This document shows, piece after piece, positions 15,210 through 19,327 of a stretch of 52,664 nt of DNA. The DNA lies in contig NZ_NVEC01000027.1 of assembly GCF_002571225.1 (NCBI RefSeq), forward strand, positions 45,260 through 97,923. Direction: 5' to 3'. A model generated the notes under the pieces. That model had not been told where the DNA came from. It was given only the letters and a program-made list of their open reading frames with translations, and did not search any database. This stretch comes from Bacillus sp. AFS059628. Its GTDB lineage: Bacteria > Bacillota > Bacilli > Bacillales > Bacillaceae_G. Position 1 is the first letter of the stretch, and each line of letters opens with the position of its first letter. A program made the position numbers and the translations under genes.

Positions 15210-16511
15210 CTATTCTAATACTTTATCTTTCGTCTCTGGAACACATAATAACATCGTAACTAAACCAATTGGATAGATAATGAAGATGAGAGATAATGCT
15301 CCCATTAAATTACCACCTGCAGCAAGTAAGCCGATAATAACAGGCCCAAATCCAGCTAAACCACGTCCTGTACCGAAAATAAAGTTTTCTGCTGTAGAGC
15401 GAGCTTCAGCAGGATAGTTTTCGGCTAAAACTGCCCCGAATCCTCCCATCATGCCATTGGCAAAGAATCCAAGCAATGCACTTCCCCATAACAATAATGT
15501 TGAGTCTGTGAATAAGAAGAAGTAAATGAGACAGTATATAGTACCACCGACATAATAGATTGTAAAAGTTTTACGGCGACCAATTTTATCAGCTAGAATA
15601 CCAAAAGTTGCAATACCAATTAGCATACCGATCGTAGAGATGAACATCCAGCCGCTCGCCTTTGCTAATGTGTAGTTATATTTATTCGCTAAAATAGTTG
15701 GCATCCATGTGAAAATTCCATAATATCCGAAGTTTTGGATGAATGACATAATAATAAGACCAATTGTTGTTATCGTTACTTTTTTATTTGCAAATAACTT
15801 TCGGAGTGGGAACTTTTTCATTTGCTTTAGTTGCTCTGCCTCAGTAGTTGTTAAACTACCTTCAGCTTCTTTTTGTAACAATTCTTTTTTGTATCGTTGT
15901 TTTTGTTCCCATATTTTCGGTTCACTTAAACTTTTTCGGACATAGACAGCTAGTAGTGCGGGAATGAGTCCAAATAAGAAAACGGCTCTCCATCCAAAGT
16001 GTGGAACGATAAATGCTGGTAGGAGTGAAGCGACTAGTACGCCGAATTGCCATCCAAGTGCCACAACGGATGTTGCCTTTGCGCGCATTTCTTTCGACCA
16101 TGTTTCAGTTACGATGGCCATTCCAATCCCGAATTCACCACCAACTCCCATTCCAACTAAAAAGCGAAGAATTAATAATTGCCAATAATCTGTTGCGAAA
16201 TAAATGAGTGCTGTTGCGAGTGAAAATAGTAAGATTGTGAAGGCCATCGTACGGATACGACCAAATAAATCAGCAATAAATCCAAATAAATAAGACCCGA
16301 TTAGCATTCCTACTGTGGTGGCTAATGTTAAGTTTCCACCTTCAACAGGGCTTAAATGAAATTCCTTTAAAATGTAGACGAGTACGAAAGATAAGAGCAA
16401 CATATCTAAACCTTCTGCTGCATACCCTAGCGCAGAACCAAATAATGTTTTATATCTTTTCTCTTTCGTCTCCTCTGTTGTTGATTGTACATCAGTAGTG
16501 ACGTTCATCAT
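15210..16511 (-). CDS. MFS transporter under a PyrR-type attenuator
   Basis: Major facilitator of 433 residues with 12 membrane segments and a central cytoplasmic loop rich in charged residues (about 205-245). It resembles the aromatic-acid/proton and sialic-acid-like symporters (GYAAEGLDMLLLSFVLV in segment 1, FGFIADLFGRIRTM after segment 2). The start ATG at 16511 (a second ATG follows directly) has GAGGAGGAG upstream. The leader reads as a PyrR-controlled attenuator, so I infer that expression falls when uridine nucleotides are plentiful. Uptake of a pyrimidine or precursor such as orotate or dihydroorotate is a plausible but unproven role. The family call is firm; the substrate is inference. 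Confidence 0.9.
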   Translation of the reverse strand: MMNVTTDVQSTTEETKEKRYKTLFGSALGYAAEGLDMLLLSFVLVYILKEFHLSPVEGGNLTLATTVGMLIGSYLFGFIADLFGRIRTMAFTILLFSLATALIYFATDYWQLLILRFLVGMGVGGEFGIGMAIVTETWSKEMRAKATSVVALGWQFGVLVASLLPAFIVPHFGWRAVFLFGLIPALLAVYVRKSLSEPKIWEQKQRYKKELLQKEAEGSLTTTEAEQLKQMKKFPLRKLFANKKVTITTIGLIIMSFIQNFGYYGIFTWMPTILANKYNYTLAKASGWMFISTIGMLIGIATFGILADKIGRRKTFTIYYVGGTIYCLIYFFLFTDSTLLLWGSALLGFFANGMMGGFGAVLAENYPAEARSTAENFIFGTGRGLAGFGPVIIGLLAAGGNLMGALSLIFIIYPIGLVTMLLCVPETKDKVLE

Positions 16512-16559
16512 TACTCCTCCTCATTTTCTTTCTACAGTCGCTATGGAAGAATAACAAAA

Positions 16560-16677
16560 GGCCTTCTCACCTGATATGATGAGAAGGCCAAAAATTCATA
16601 CGTATCCCTAAAAAAGGGCATACGTATAGAGTATATTCCGACTTCCTTCTCAACCTCACGGGGTTGGGTTAAAGGAC
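16560..16677 (-). promoter_or_regulatory. PyrR-binding attenuator leader of the MFS gene
   Basis: Read on the minus strand, 16677-16640 holds CCTTTAACCCAACC, the hexaloop CCGTGA, then GGTTGAGAAGG. That gives an upper stem CAACC/GGTTG and a lower stem CCTT/AAGG, matching the PyrR binding loop of Bacillus pyr leaders. A terminator follows (GGCCTTCTCA with TGAGAAGGCC, then TTTTGTT). TGAGAAGG of the PyrR element is exactly complementary to CCTTCTCA in the terminator's 5' arm. This provides the mutually exclusive antiterminator that the PyrR mechanism needs. A third hairpin built on two ATACGTAT copies lies between them (about 16598-16627). Confidence 0.85.
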
Positions 16678-16694
16678 TGTATTATATTACTTTA

Positions 16695-16723
16695 TTTTTA
16701 GCACTCTTCTATTACATTGTCAA
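16695..16723 (-). promoter_or_regulatory. Promoter of the MFS leader
   Basis: On the minus strand, TTGACA at 16723-16718 and TAAAAA at 16700-16695 are 17 bases apart. This places the transcript start just ahead of the PyrR element. The 328-base gap 16512-16839 is filled by this leader and the divergent lytS promoter. Confidence 0.65.
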
Positions 16724-16775
16724 ATAATGAGGGAATTGTTATGTGTAAAATATTTCAAAAGATATTTCATTCTTC

Positions 16776-16805
16776 TTGACGCACACTTCATTATTTTCCC
16801 ATAAT
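16776..16805 (+). promoter_or_regulatory. Probable sigma-A promoter of lytS
   Basis: TTGACG at 16776-16781 and CATAAT at 16800-16805 are spaced by 18 bases, 35 bases before the lytS start. Confidence 0.55.
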
Positions 16806-16839
16806 AAAACTAACTCATATAAAAAGGAATGAATCACGG

Positions 16840-18609
16840 ATGCTAAATTTAGTACTTATGATGATTGAACGTGTCGGACTTATTGTTATTTTAGGATTTT
16901 TACTTTCTCATATTAAAACGTTCAGGCGCCTTCTTCATAAGCAAGATGGATATGTAGATAAGCTTAAGCTTATTTGTATTTTTTCAGTGTTTACAATTGT
17001 AAGCAATTACACAGGAATTGAAATTGCCGGGAATACAATTATGAAAGAAAATTGGCTACAAGGTGTTTCGTCATCTAGTACAATTGCGAATACACGTATT
17101 ATGGGTGTTGGAATTAGTGGATTGCTTGGAGGTCCTATCGTCGGCATTGGAGTAGGATCAATTGCAGGTATTCACCGTTATATGCTTGGCGGGACGACAG
17201 CGCTAAGTTGTGCAATTTCGTCAATTTTAGCAGGTGTTATAACAGGGTACATTGGATACATTTTCAAAAAATATAATCGTGTAATTACGCCTAAATTTTC
17301 AGCGGTTTTAAGTGTGTTTATCGTTTCTTTAGAAATGATTATGATCCTATTAATCGTAGAGGATGGGAGTAGTATCGTGAAAACAATTGCGATACCAATG
17401 ATCCTTGTAAATAGTTTTGGGAGTTTTATTTTACTTTCTATGATACAAGCTATTTTGCGTCAGGAAGAAAATGCGAAAGCCCTGCAAACGCATAAAGTAT
17501 TACGAATTGCTGACAAAACATTACCATATTTTCGCCGCGGATTAACAGAGGATTCTTGTAAACATGTGGCACAAATTATTCACCGCTTTACGGGAACAGA
17601 TGCGGTATCCTTAACAGATACAGAGAAAATATTAGCTCATGTTGGATTAGCATCAGATCATCATATTCCTTCACATAGTTTAATAACGGGTTTATCGAAA
17701 GAAGTGTTGAATACGGGAAAAATAATGAAGGCAAAATCGCGTGAGGTTATTAATTGTCAACATGAAAGCTGCCCTTTGCAAGCGGCGATCGTTATTCCAC
17801 TAACTTCACATGGAAATACAATTGGGACATTAAAACTGTATTTTAAAAATTCTAATCAGTTAAGTCGCGTAGAAGAGGAATTAGCAGAAGGGTTAGCAAA
17901 AATATTCTCTACACAACTTGAATTAGGTGAAGCTGAGTTGCAAAGTAAATTATTGCAAGATGCAGAGATAAAAGCATTACAAGCACAAATTAACCCACAC
18001 TTTTTATTTAATGCGATTAATACAGTATCAGCTTTATGCCGAACAGATGTAGAGAAGGCAAGGAAGTTATTATTACAGCTTAGCGTGTATTTCCGTTGTA
18101 ATTTGCAAGGAGCACGCCAATTACTTATTCCATTAGAACAAGAGTTAAATCATGTACATGCATATTTATCTTTAGAACAAGCGAGGTTTCCAAATAAGTA
18201 TGAGGTGAAGATGTACATTGAGGAAGAGTTAAAGACGACCTTAGTTCCACCGTTTGTACTTCAGTTATTAGTTGAAAATGCATTACGTCATGCTTTTCCG
18301 AAAAAGCAGCCAGTTTGCCAAGTTGAGATACATGTGTTTGAAGAAGAGGAGATGGTTCATTTTGAAGTGCGAGATAATGGACAAGGGATTGAGAGTGAAC
18401 GTCTAGGGCAATTAGGAAAAATGGTAGTTCCATCAAAGAAAGGGACTGGAACGGCTTTATATAACATTAATGAACGACTTATCGGGTTATTTGGGAAAGA
18501 GACAATGCTTCAAATTGAAAGTGAATTAGAGCAAGGGACAAAAATCTCCTTCGTAATCCCGAAAAAAGTAGGGGAGGAAAAGCGGAGTGTTAAAAGTATT
18601 AGTAGTTGA
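16840..18609 (+). CDS. lytS: Sensor histidine kinase LytS
   Basis: Membrane kinase of 589 residues. The N-terminal half has the 5TMR-LYT sensor region (about 1-205), followed by a GAF domain (about 230-360). The LytS-type kinase core carries phospho-acceptor H387 in AQINPHFLFN, then an ATPase domain with the N-box LLVENALRHAF and a DNGQG motif. It phosphorylates LytR, whose GTG start lies inside the last 23 bases of lytS. In Bacillus this pair controls lrgAB and responds to pyruvate or to membrane state. The ATG at 16840 has AAAGGA 11 bases upstream; a five-codon reading frame (16829) overlaps the start. Confidence 0.95.
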   Translation: MLNLVLMMIERVGLIVILGFLLSHIKTFRRLLHKQDGYVDKLKLICIFSVFTIVSNYTGIEIAGNTIMKENWLQGVSSSSTIANTRIMGVGISGLLGGPIVGIGVGSIAGIHRYMLGGTTALSCAISSILAGVITGYIGYIFKKYNRVITPKFSAVLSVFIVSLEMIMILLIVEDGSSIVKTIAIPMILVNSFGSFILLSMIQAILRQEENAKALQTHKVLRIADKTLPYFRRGLTEDSCKHVAQIIHRFTGTDAVSLTDTEKILAHVGLASDHHIPSHSLITGLSKEVLNTGKIMKAKSREVINCQHESCPLQAAIVIPLTSHGNTIGTLKLYFKNSNQLSRVEEELAEGLAKIFSTQLELGEAELQSKLLQDAEIKALQAQINPHFLFNAINTVSALCRTDVEKARKLLLQLSVYFRCNLQGARQLLIPLEQELNHVHAYLSLEQARFPNKYEVKMYIEEELKTTLVPPFVLQLLVENALRHAFPKKQPVCQVEIHVFEEEEMVHFEVRDNGQGIESERLGQLGKMVVPSKKGTGTALYNINERLIGLFGKETMLQIESELEQGTKISFVIPKKVGEEKRSVKSISS

Positions 18610-19327
18610 CGATGAAATGTTAGCACGGGATGAGTTGAAATATTTATTAGAACAAACGAAAGAAGTAGAAATAGTTGGTGAGGCTGATTGTGTAGAAGAT
18701 GCATTAGAAGAGCTAATGCAAAACAAACCAGATATTGTTTTCCTAGACATTCAGTTATCGGATGATAACGGATTTGAGATCGCAAATATATTAAAGAAGA
18801 TGAAAAATCCACCTGCAATTGTGTTTGCGACTGCCTACGATCAATACGCACTGCAAGCATTTGAAGTAGATGCGTTAGACTACATTTTAAAGCCATTTGA
18901 TGAAGAACGTATCGTACAGACATTAAAGAAATATAAAAAGCAAAAACAAATAAAATTAGAAACAAAACAGGAAGTAAAGAGTGTAGATGTAACGACGGAG
19001 ATGCATAAATTAGCATTACCAATTGAGGAATCGATCGTACTTGTGAATATTGAAGATATTATATATGTAGGACTTGTGGACGGAAAAGTGACAGTAAAAA
19101 CGATGAAGGAAACATATGTAACACATGATACACTTGTCATTTTGGAAAAGAAGTTGCCGCAAGCAAGTTTTATGCGTGTTCATCGTAGTTTTATTGCAAA
19201 TATTAATCATATTACGGAAATACAACCGTGGTTTAACTCTACTTATAACTTAATTATGAAAGAAGGGTCAAAAGTACCTGTTAGCCGAACATATGCAAAA
19301 GAACTCAAAAAGCTACTTCGTATTTAA
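18587..19327 (+). CDS. lytR: Response regulator LytR (LytTR DNA-binding domain)
   Basis: Regulator of 246 residues. The receiver domain has acidic residues D8 and D9 (LVVDDE), phospho-acceptor D54 (VFLDIQLSD) and the conserved lysine in YILKPF. The C-terminal half is a LytTR domain (FMRVHRSFIANINHI). It starts at GTG 18587 with GGGGAGG upstream and overlaps lytS by 23 bases, so the two are co-translated. The expected target is lrgAB directly downstream. It is a useful comparison for the degenerate paralogue at 48226. Confidence 0.95.
   Translation: MLKVLVVDDEMLARDELKYLLEQTKEVEIVGEADCVEDALEELMQNKPDIVFLDIQLSDDNGFEIANILKKMKNPPAIVFATAYDQYALQAFEVDALDYILKPFDEERIVQTLKKYKKQKQIKLETKQEVKSVDVTTEMHKLALPIEESIVLVNIEDIIYVGLVDGKVTVKTMKETYVTHDTLVILEKKLPQASFMRVHRSFIANINHITEIQPWFNSTYNLIMKEGSKVPVSRTYAKELKKLLRI

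Follow-up and report, generated by a model that had tools for sequence, protein, structure and literature searches.

The pyrR, pyrP and pyrB attenuators of Bacillus subtilis (RF00515) consist, in this order, of a binding loop, an antiterminator strand and a terminator, and the on/off logic exerted by PyrR-UMP has been established for the B. subtilis protein, as described in the available part of PMC4347634. A further mode of action, translational repression by PyrR in Mycobacterium smegmatis, is named in the title of a paper (Fields and Switzer 2007) cited in the available part of PMC13328217. As for the uptake of orotate, the accessible text of PMC12802215 describes OroP of Lactococcus, which imports orotate and makes B. 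subtilis sensitive to 5-fluoroorotate, and that of PMC13328217 describes DctA of Escherichia coli and Salmonella, which imports orotate for use as a pyrimidine source.

The window, i.e., the whole stretch of 52,664 nucleotides from Bacillus sp. AFS059628 that was analyzed here, contains a leader of the same order on its minus strand. Upstream (5') of a gene for a transporter of the major facilitator superfamily (MFS), a TTGACA promoter, a PyrR binding loop, an antiterminator strand and an intrinsic terminator follow one another. On the sequence evidence presented below, this gene is likely to encode an MFS importer of orotate (possibly also of dihydroorotate) that belongs to the PyrR regulon. 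The features of the locus are as follows.

16695..16723, minus strand: promoter-like site; TTGACA at 16723-16718, 17-nt spacer, TAAAAA at 16700-16695
16675..16680, minus strand: ACAGTC at the 5' base of the binding loop, complementary to GACTGT at 16539-16534 (comparison of MFS elements)
16642..16679, minus strand: predicted PyrR binding loop, or anti-antiterminator (RF00515 alignment; consensus fold of five leaders)
16645..16652, minus strand: TGAGAAGG, the 3' strand of the binding loop and 5' strand of the antiterminator, exact reverse complement of CCTTCTCA
16596..16631 (ends approximate), minus strand: variable middle hairpin of the antiterminator region (RNA folding)
16560..16589, minus strand: intrinsic terminator, 12-bp stem and T run (Rfam alignment; terminator scan)
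16534..16554, minus strand: conserved block TTATTCTTCCATAGCGACTGT, between terminator and start codon, inside the hairpin at 16508..16557
16508..16557, minus strand: hairpin pairing the Shine-Dalgarno sequence and start codon, arms 16557-16545 and 16520-16508 (folding)
15210..16511, minus strand: MFS transporter gene, 433 aa, predicted orotate importer (PF07690; TIGR00895; orthologue context)

All of the leader parts claimed in a sequence-only reading of this DNA were recovered: the TTGACA box, the CAACC, CCGTGA, GGTTG and AGAAGG segments (all within 16679-16642), the terminator stem (16589-16560) and the exact complementarity of CCTTCTCA (16587-16580) to TGAGAAGG (16652-16645). The binding loop is composed of a lower stem (UCCUUU/AGAAGGA), an upper stem (CAACC/GGUUG) and the loop CCGUGA. 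The promoter scan gave three promoter-like sites versus a shuffle mean of 1.5, including an alternative TTGACA/AAAAAT pair with an 18-nt spacer and a 10/12 match; the TTGACA box is retained at all seven leader-bearing loci, 45-56 nt 5' of the binding loop. The terminator is the only terminator-like site in 16450-16840 (shuffles, mean 0.3, sd 0.6), and its stem is kept across the leaders with some two-sided changes in the consensus fold of five of them. The eight antiterminator pairs of the TGAGAAGG type can form in 7 of 7 leaders if G-U is allowed, and, as far as complementarity goes, antiterminator and terminator exclude each other as in RF00515.

The Rfam PyrR model matched 16553-16679 (minus strand) over its full length (1-115; E 7.7e-05), nearly the same span as the 16560-16677 proposed in the sequence-only reading. 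This score of 54.7 bits is, by itself, only just above the gathering threshold of 54, by 0.7 bit; RF00515 was the only family to reach its gathering threshold in the entire window. The element also precedes 6 of the 18 orthologues, including ones from Rossellomorea, Bacillus and Aneurinibacillus, which is the upstream conservation on which the earlier proposal had been staked. Its scores were 57.5-64.8 bits before L001, L002, L003 and L008 (the four values, in descending order, being 64.8, 62.1, 60.9 and 57.5), 60.6 bits before L048 and, below threshold, 43.9 bits before L045, where the leader is split by an inserted repeat. This repeat (about 2907-3035 of L045, leader on the minus strand) interrupts the apical part of the antiterminator's middle hairpin, with the pairing arms unbroken; a 124-base query yielded 27 full and partial matches in the same genome, the query itself counted. 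Among the leaders the middle hairpin varies, while the loop, the terminator arms and the block after the terminator are nearly fixed: in the six leaders other than that of L048, the loop and the block have mean pairwise identities of 0.92 and 0.95, respectively, as against 0.56 in the 20 bases 5' of the loop. The element was absent upstream of L004-L007 and L049-L055 (cmscan) and before L059 (whole-genome element list of G693). The 36-base loop pattern occurred in one (G004) of 398 genomes sampled across the phylum, and the leader had no match in plasmid and phage records or viral contigs. The covariance-model match together with the element before six orthologues thus supports the predicted membership of the gene in the PyrR regulon, as had been suggested. 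In L003, a strong c-di-GMP-I riboswitch (2392-2481; 90.2 bits) lies upstream of the MFS leader, on the strand opposite to it.

The window protein matches Pfam PF07690 (MFS_1) with 184.4 bits, and the best among the NCBIfam matches listed is TIGR00895, aromatic acid/H+ symport (295.1 bits over residues 11-396), whose cut-off of 418.55 lies above that score. Families of uracil or nucleobase permeases were absent from its four Pfam families and from the 25 of 53 NCBIfam matches listed; the earlier statement that the gene is not a uracil permease agrees with this, no uracil-permease (NCS2) family having been matched. Residues such as Tyr30, Asn60, Tyr74, Arg143, Trp154, Asn260 and Tyr264 are invariant in 19 orthologues and different in all 13 paralogues, and are candidates for determinants of specificity. 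The structure model shows an MFS fold (pLDDT 73.4) and does not discriminate between substrates.

A scan of genome contigs yielded nine loci, of which eight (L001-L008) are close orthologues of 76-88% identity and the ninth (L009) shares 24%. Whole-genome searches added ten more (L045, L048-L055 and L059), giving the 18 orthologues that were placed in a tree of 32 proteins with the window protein and 13 paralogues. The orthologues form a group apart from these paralogues, which are 36-41% identical. The seven leader-bearing proteins (window included) and the 12 leaderless ones fall on opposite sides of one branch (support 95/100). Since the leaderless twelve make up a clade when the paralogues serve as root, either a single loss of an ancestral leader or a single gain would be compatible with the tree. 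In samples that partly overlap, 12 of 398 genomes from across the class carry the gene; the orders of G002, G001 and G330 had it in 3 of 15, 1 of 101 and 1 of 1 genomes, respectively, and the family of G005 in 5 of 197; 299 genomes from the order of G004 contained one close orthologue (that of G004 itself), the 13 other relatives being the paralogues of 36-41% identity. This patchy distribution suggests repeated gain or loss.

The leader-bearing and leaderless sets were examined further in the context of pyrimidine biosynthesis. Both G001 and G004 carry four RF00515 matches, the MFS leader being the fourth beside the pyrR, pyrP and pyrB elements (assigned by ORFs in G001 and by matching gene starts in G004). 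G001, which carries the MFS leader, encodes a PyrR protein confirmed by HMM (276 bits) and, by ORF reading, a complete pyr operon with pyrK and pyrD, so that the transporter is no substitute for a missing step in this genome. In six other genomes (G635, G643, G651, G659, G596 and G548) a leaderless orthologue is located directly 3' of pyrE and in the same orientation. At L090 (G635), L092 (G596) and L104 (G651), the complete order pyrR-pyrP-pyrB-pyrC-carA-carB-pyrF-pyrE could be read; at L091, L103 and L093, longer overlapping frames hide one or more genes at the start of the operon, and at L093 carB as well. Elements were counted in four of the six genomes: G635, G659, G596 and G548 have three or four each, three of them at the operon head. 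The gaps between pyrE and the MFS gene measure 112-291 nt where the frame start is clear, and the MFS gene may be transcribed apart from the pyr operon in these six genomes. No pyrK or pyrD was seen between carB and pyrF in the pyr operons of L090-L093, L095, L103 and L104. In the Paenibacillus branch (L004-L007, L059), neither the leader nor pyr genes were present in the flanks read; between the MFS gene and a gene that looks, by eye, like a YhhQ-type transporter, L006 (4388-4433) and L007 (4354-4399) show PreQ1-like riboswitch matches under threshold (34.5 and 33.9 versus 39 bits). In the window itself, the divergent neighbors at 16840-19327 encode a sensor kinase of the LytS type and a response regulator of the LytR type, which scores below its NCBIfam cut-off, and no pyrimidine gene was found among the four or five window proteins typed.

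The second context is that of breakdown. The classical orotate-fermentation pathway leads from orotate to dihydroorotate, carbamoyl-aspartate and aspartate. Genes for PyrK-type, PyrD-type, dihydroorotase/allantoinase-like and N-carbamoylase proteins lie 3' of the MFS gene in five of the six pyrE-linked genomes (not in G659) and in G351. In the latter the row comprises the MFS gene, an amidohydrolase, an IclR regulator, the PyrK-type and PyrD-type proteins and the N-carbamoylase, with the pyr operon elsewhere. A PucR-type regulator gene stands beside the MFS gene in G635, G651, G596 and G548; the corresponding stretch of G643 is hidden by another frame. The cluster enzymes were typed by HMM in G351 and G635; in the other genomes they were assigned from the positions of PF01180 matches and by reading ORFs. 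HMM typing extended to the PucR protein and carbamoylase in G596, and to PF01180 alone in G643, G651 and G548. In G351 and G635, respectively, the clustered PyrD scored 320.6 and 338.3 bits with TIGR01037 (cut-off 270), and the N-carbamoylase 431.5 and 408.9 with TIGR01879 (cut-off 204). The amidohydrolase scored 349.9 and 355.4 with the dihydroorotase model TIGR00857 (cut-off 279.05), and also passed the allantoinase model TIGR03178 with 383.1 and 382.4 (cut-off 357.85). The matches of the PyrK-type proteins to the PyrK model were below cut-off in both genomes, and that of G351 passes Pfam DHODB_Fe-S_bind (41.8 versus 23.9). The clustered PyrD looks like a second copy, because a distant PF01180 gene scores better in each of the six cluster genomes; three of these catabolic-type PyrDs share 42-45% identity with three from the pyr operons of other genomes. 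Judged by their gene content, the clusters at L138-L142 and L094 look like orotate breakdown loci, whose enzymes would carry out the three steps from orotate to aspartate. A nitroreductase-like gene (by HMM in L138 only) and another conserved frame come after the cluster genes in L138, L139 and L142. In two Paenibacillus genomes (G005 and G007), a PyrK/PyrD-like pair lies apart from the MFS gene, the other two enzymes being absent from the stretch read. A text search of the open literature for an orotate-breakdown pathway found nothing related.

The sequence-only reading had listed orotate, dihydroorotate, carbamoyl-aspartate and nucleosides as possible imports, or an overflow product as an export. 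Its option of a precursor importer is supported by the leaderless orthologues, which directly follow pyrE and/or lie beside genes for a predicted three-step breakdown of orotate. Orotate (or dihydroorotate) is the best reading because the salvage and breakdown settings share orotate, and the kinship with aromatic-acid/H+ symporters would suit an anionic ring carboxylate. Nucleosides, and uracil as well, fit less well since the protein is nearest to aromatic-acid symporters and no uracil-permease family appears among its Pfam matches. No catabolic genes were seen alongside the leader-bearing genes in the flanks read, and the substrate argument therefore crosses between the two orthologue sets, whose members are 71-89% identical to the window protein.

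From the element, its conservation and the pairing competition observed in the leader, we infer PyrR binding and a response to UMP. At high UMP, PyrR-UMP would keep the binding loop closed, so that TGAGAAGG would be unavailable, the terminator would form and the gene would be off. At low UMP, TGAGAAGG would pair with CCUUCUCA, blocking the terminator, and the transporter would be made. Imported orotate, the direction and substrate predicted with the help of the orthologues' genomic links, would then be converted to UMP by PyrE and PyrF, and the earlier steps bypassed.

Other substrates that share parts of this evidence were weighed against orotate. Dihydroorotate and N-carbamoyl-L-aspartate also occur in this pathway, as intermediates on which the predicted neighboring enzymes act, but the clusters include the PyrD/PyrK-type pair, needed only if orotate itself enters, and the nearest sequence family is that of the aromatic-acid symporters; transport of either compound instead of orotate is therefore unlikely. 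TIGR00895 covers aromatic acids, and the patchy occurrence of the gene (12 of 398 genomes across the class) implies that it has moved or been lost often, as might be expected of an importer of another ring acid (e.g., nicotinate or hydroxybenzoate) that had captured a PyrR leader without any function in pyrimidine metabolism. This is very unlikely in the face of two links to pyrimidines, the PyrR leader in one set and the pyr-operon and orotate-breakdown neighbors in another.

Export of a pyrimidine overflow product such as orotate would be in keeping with an MFS that includes exporters and with a sequence that does not give direction. It is disfavored, to the point of being highly improbable, because PyrR attenuation would express the gene when UMP is low, which is the wrong sign for overflow, and orthologues are clustered with predicted breakdown enzymes in six genomes. 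It is just as improbable that the window element is a decayed or inactive relic. Its score exceeds the threshold by so little, and its loop stem reads AACCC where the PyrR consensus (ARUCC...GAGGYU) has ARUCC; against this, AACCC occurs also in L002 and L045, and the promoter, the loop, the antiterminator strand and the terminator are all in place and conserved, in contrast to the variable middle hairpin.

The conserved block after the terminator and its pairing with the Shine-Dalgarno sequence are new relative to the sequence-only reading. In the window this hairpin has 13 bp and -14.3 kcal/mol, and 1 of 1000 shuffles was as stable. Its stability was significant in four of the seven leaders (1 per 1000 shuffles for the window, and 2, 4 and 7 per 1000 among L002, L003 and L045), and not in L001 (184), L008 (91) and L048 (275). 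In whole-leader minimum-energy folds, the Shine-Dalgarno sequence lies opposite the CUUCC of the block in 6 of 7 leaders, and in L001 this pairing appears only when the 3' part is folded alone. The consensus fold of five leaders draws the hairpin too, with no two-sided changes among the five, and covariation consequently does not support it. Eleven of 12 control PyrR leaders were no more stable than shuffles (z of -0.7 or higher), the other being L014 (z -2.8); the windows folded for the hairpin had been placed manually over the conserved block, those of the controls having a fixed length of 54 nt. In some control leaders, e.g., L026 and L027, part of the Shine-Dalgarno region was weakly paired.

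The combination of ACAGTCCTTT at the loop base (read off the comparison printout) and GACTGT after the element, which is present in the window too, was found in 6 of 6 MFS elements and in none of 43 other PyrR elements from 16 genomes. L048 retains both pieces despite a different sequence between CTTCC and GACTGT. Forcing the binding loop gave a Shine-Dalgarno/CUUCC pairing of 0.59-1.00 across the seven leaders, and forcing the antiterminator gave 0.23 in L001, 0.35 in L048 and 0.80-1.00 in the other five. Folding, which excludes pseudoknots, therefore showed no PyrR-dependent opening of the hairpin in most leaders. In the free fold, ACAGUC/GACUGU pairing was favored only in L001 (0.77; L008, 0.27; the other five, 0.00), where the long-range helix replaces the hairpin. 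Translation is probably held down by the hairpin as well. That the hairpin forms part of a translational switch is conjectural, because forcing the loop or the antiterminator does not flip the hairpin in most leaders. A leader acting at two levels, in which ACAGUC freed by opening of the loop would pair with GACUGU and UMP would tune both transcription and translation of the MFS orotate importer, is doubtful.

If the main proposal is right, an orphan MFS group gains a testable substrate, and its carriers could take up orotate under pyrimidine control and would be natively sensitive to 5-fluoroorotate, a trait that would supply a means of selection (a marker). The orthologue clusters delineate what looks like a locus of orotate breakdown, and the leader raises the question of whether one PyrR RNA also gates translation. 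The MFS family is not tied to orotate in the literature searched. The open literature covered by that search, of which the RegPrecise tables and most subscription papers are not part, held no report on this gene, and RegPrecise may already list it. The available part of PMC3766115 (a 2013 comparative study of RNA regulons), section 6 included and supplements aside, contains no list of PyrR members, and the accessible portions of PMC2965389, PMC2654142, PMC5210280 and PMC10942264 contain nothing on this gene.

Transporters of other families are likewise found behind PyrR elements, namely the PyrP/UraA uracil permease (by ORF reading) and the CodB cytosine permease (by HMM), while the window protein belongs to the MFS. 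In G308 (L098:2092-4626), a PyrR element of 52.9 bits, just under threshold, precedes a cytosine permease (NF008241, 597.6 bits) and a cytosine deaminase (NF006685, 780.3 bits); the same pair follows a PyrR element in L101, L102, L105 and L107, as judged from ORF starts only.

In contrast to the classical pyr attenuators, the window leader would control an MFS gene away from the pyr operon and has a stable hairpin over the Shine-Dalgarno sequence, and the conserved ACAGTC/GACTGT pair sets the MFS leaders apart from the 43 other PyrR elements. The PyrR of M. smegmatis, known here by title and citation, is a precedent for action on translation; unlike that case, the window leader also has a full transcription attenuator, and translational control is suggested by folding only. 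Among protein families, TIGR00895 is the nearest to the window protein, which stays below its cut-off. OroP and DctA belong to transporter families other than that of the window protein and are not known to be controlled by PyrR. They are comparable to it by substrate: both import orotate, the compound predicted for the window protein.
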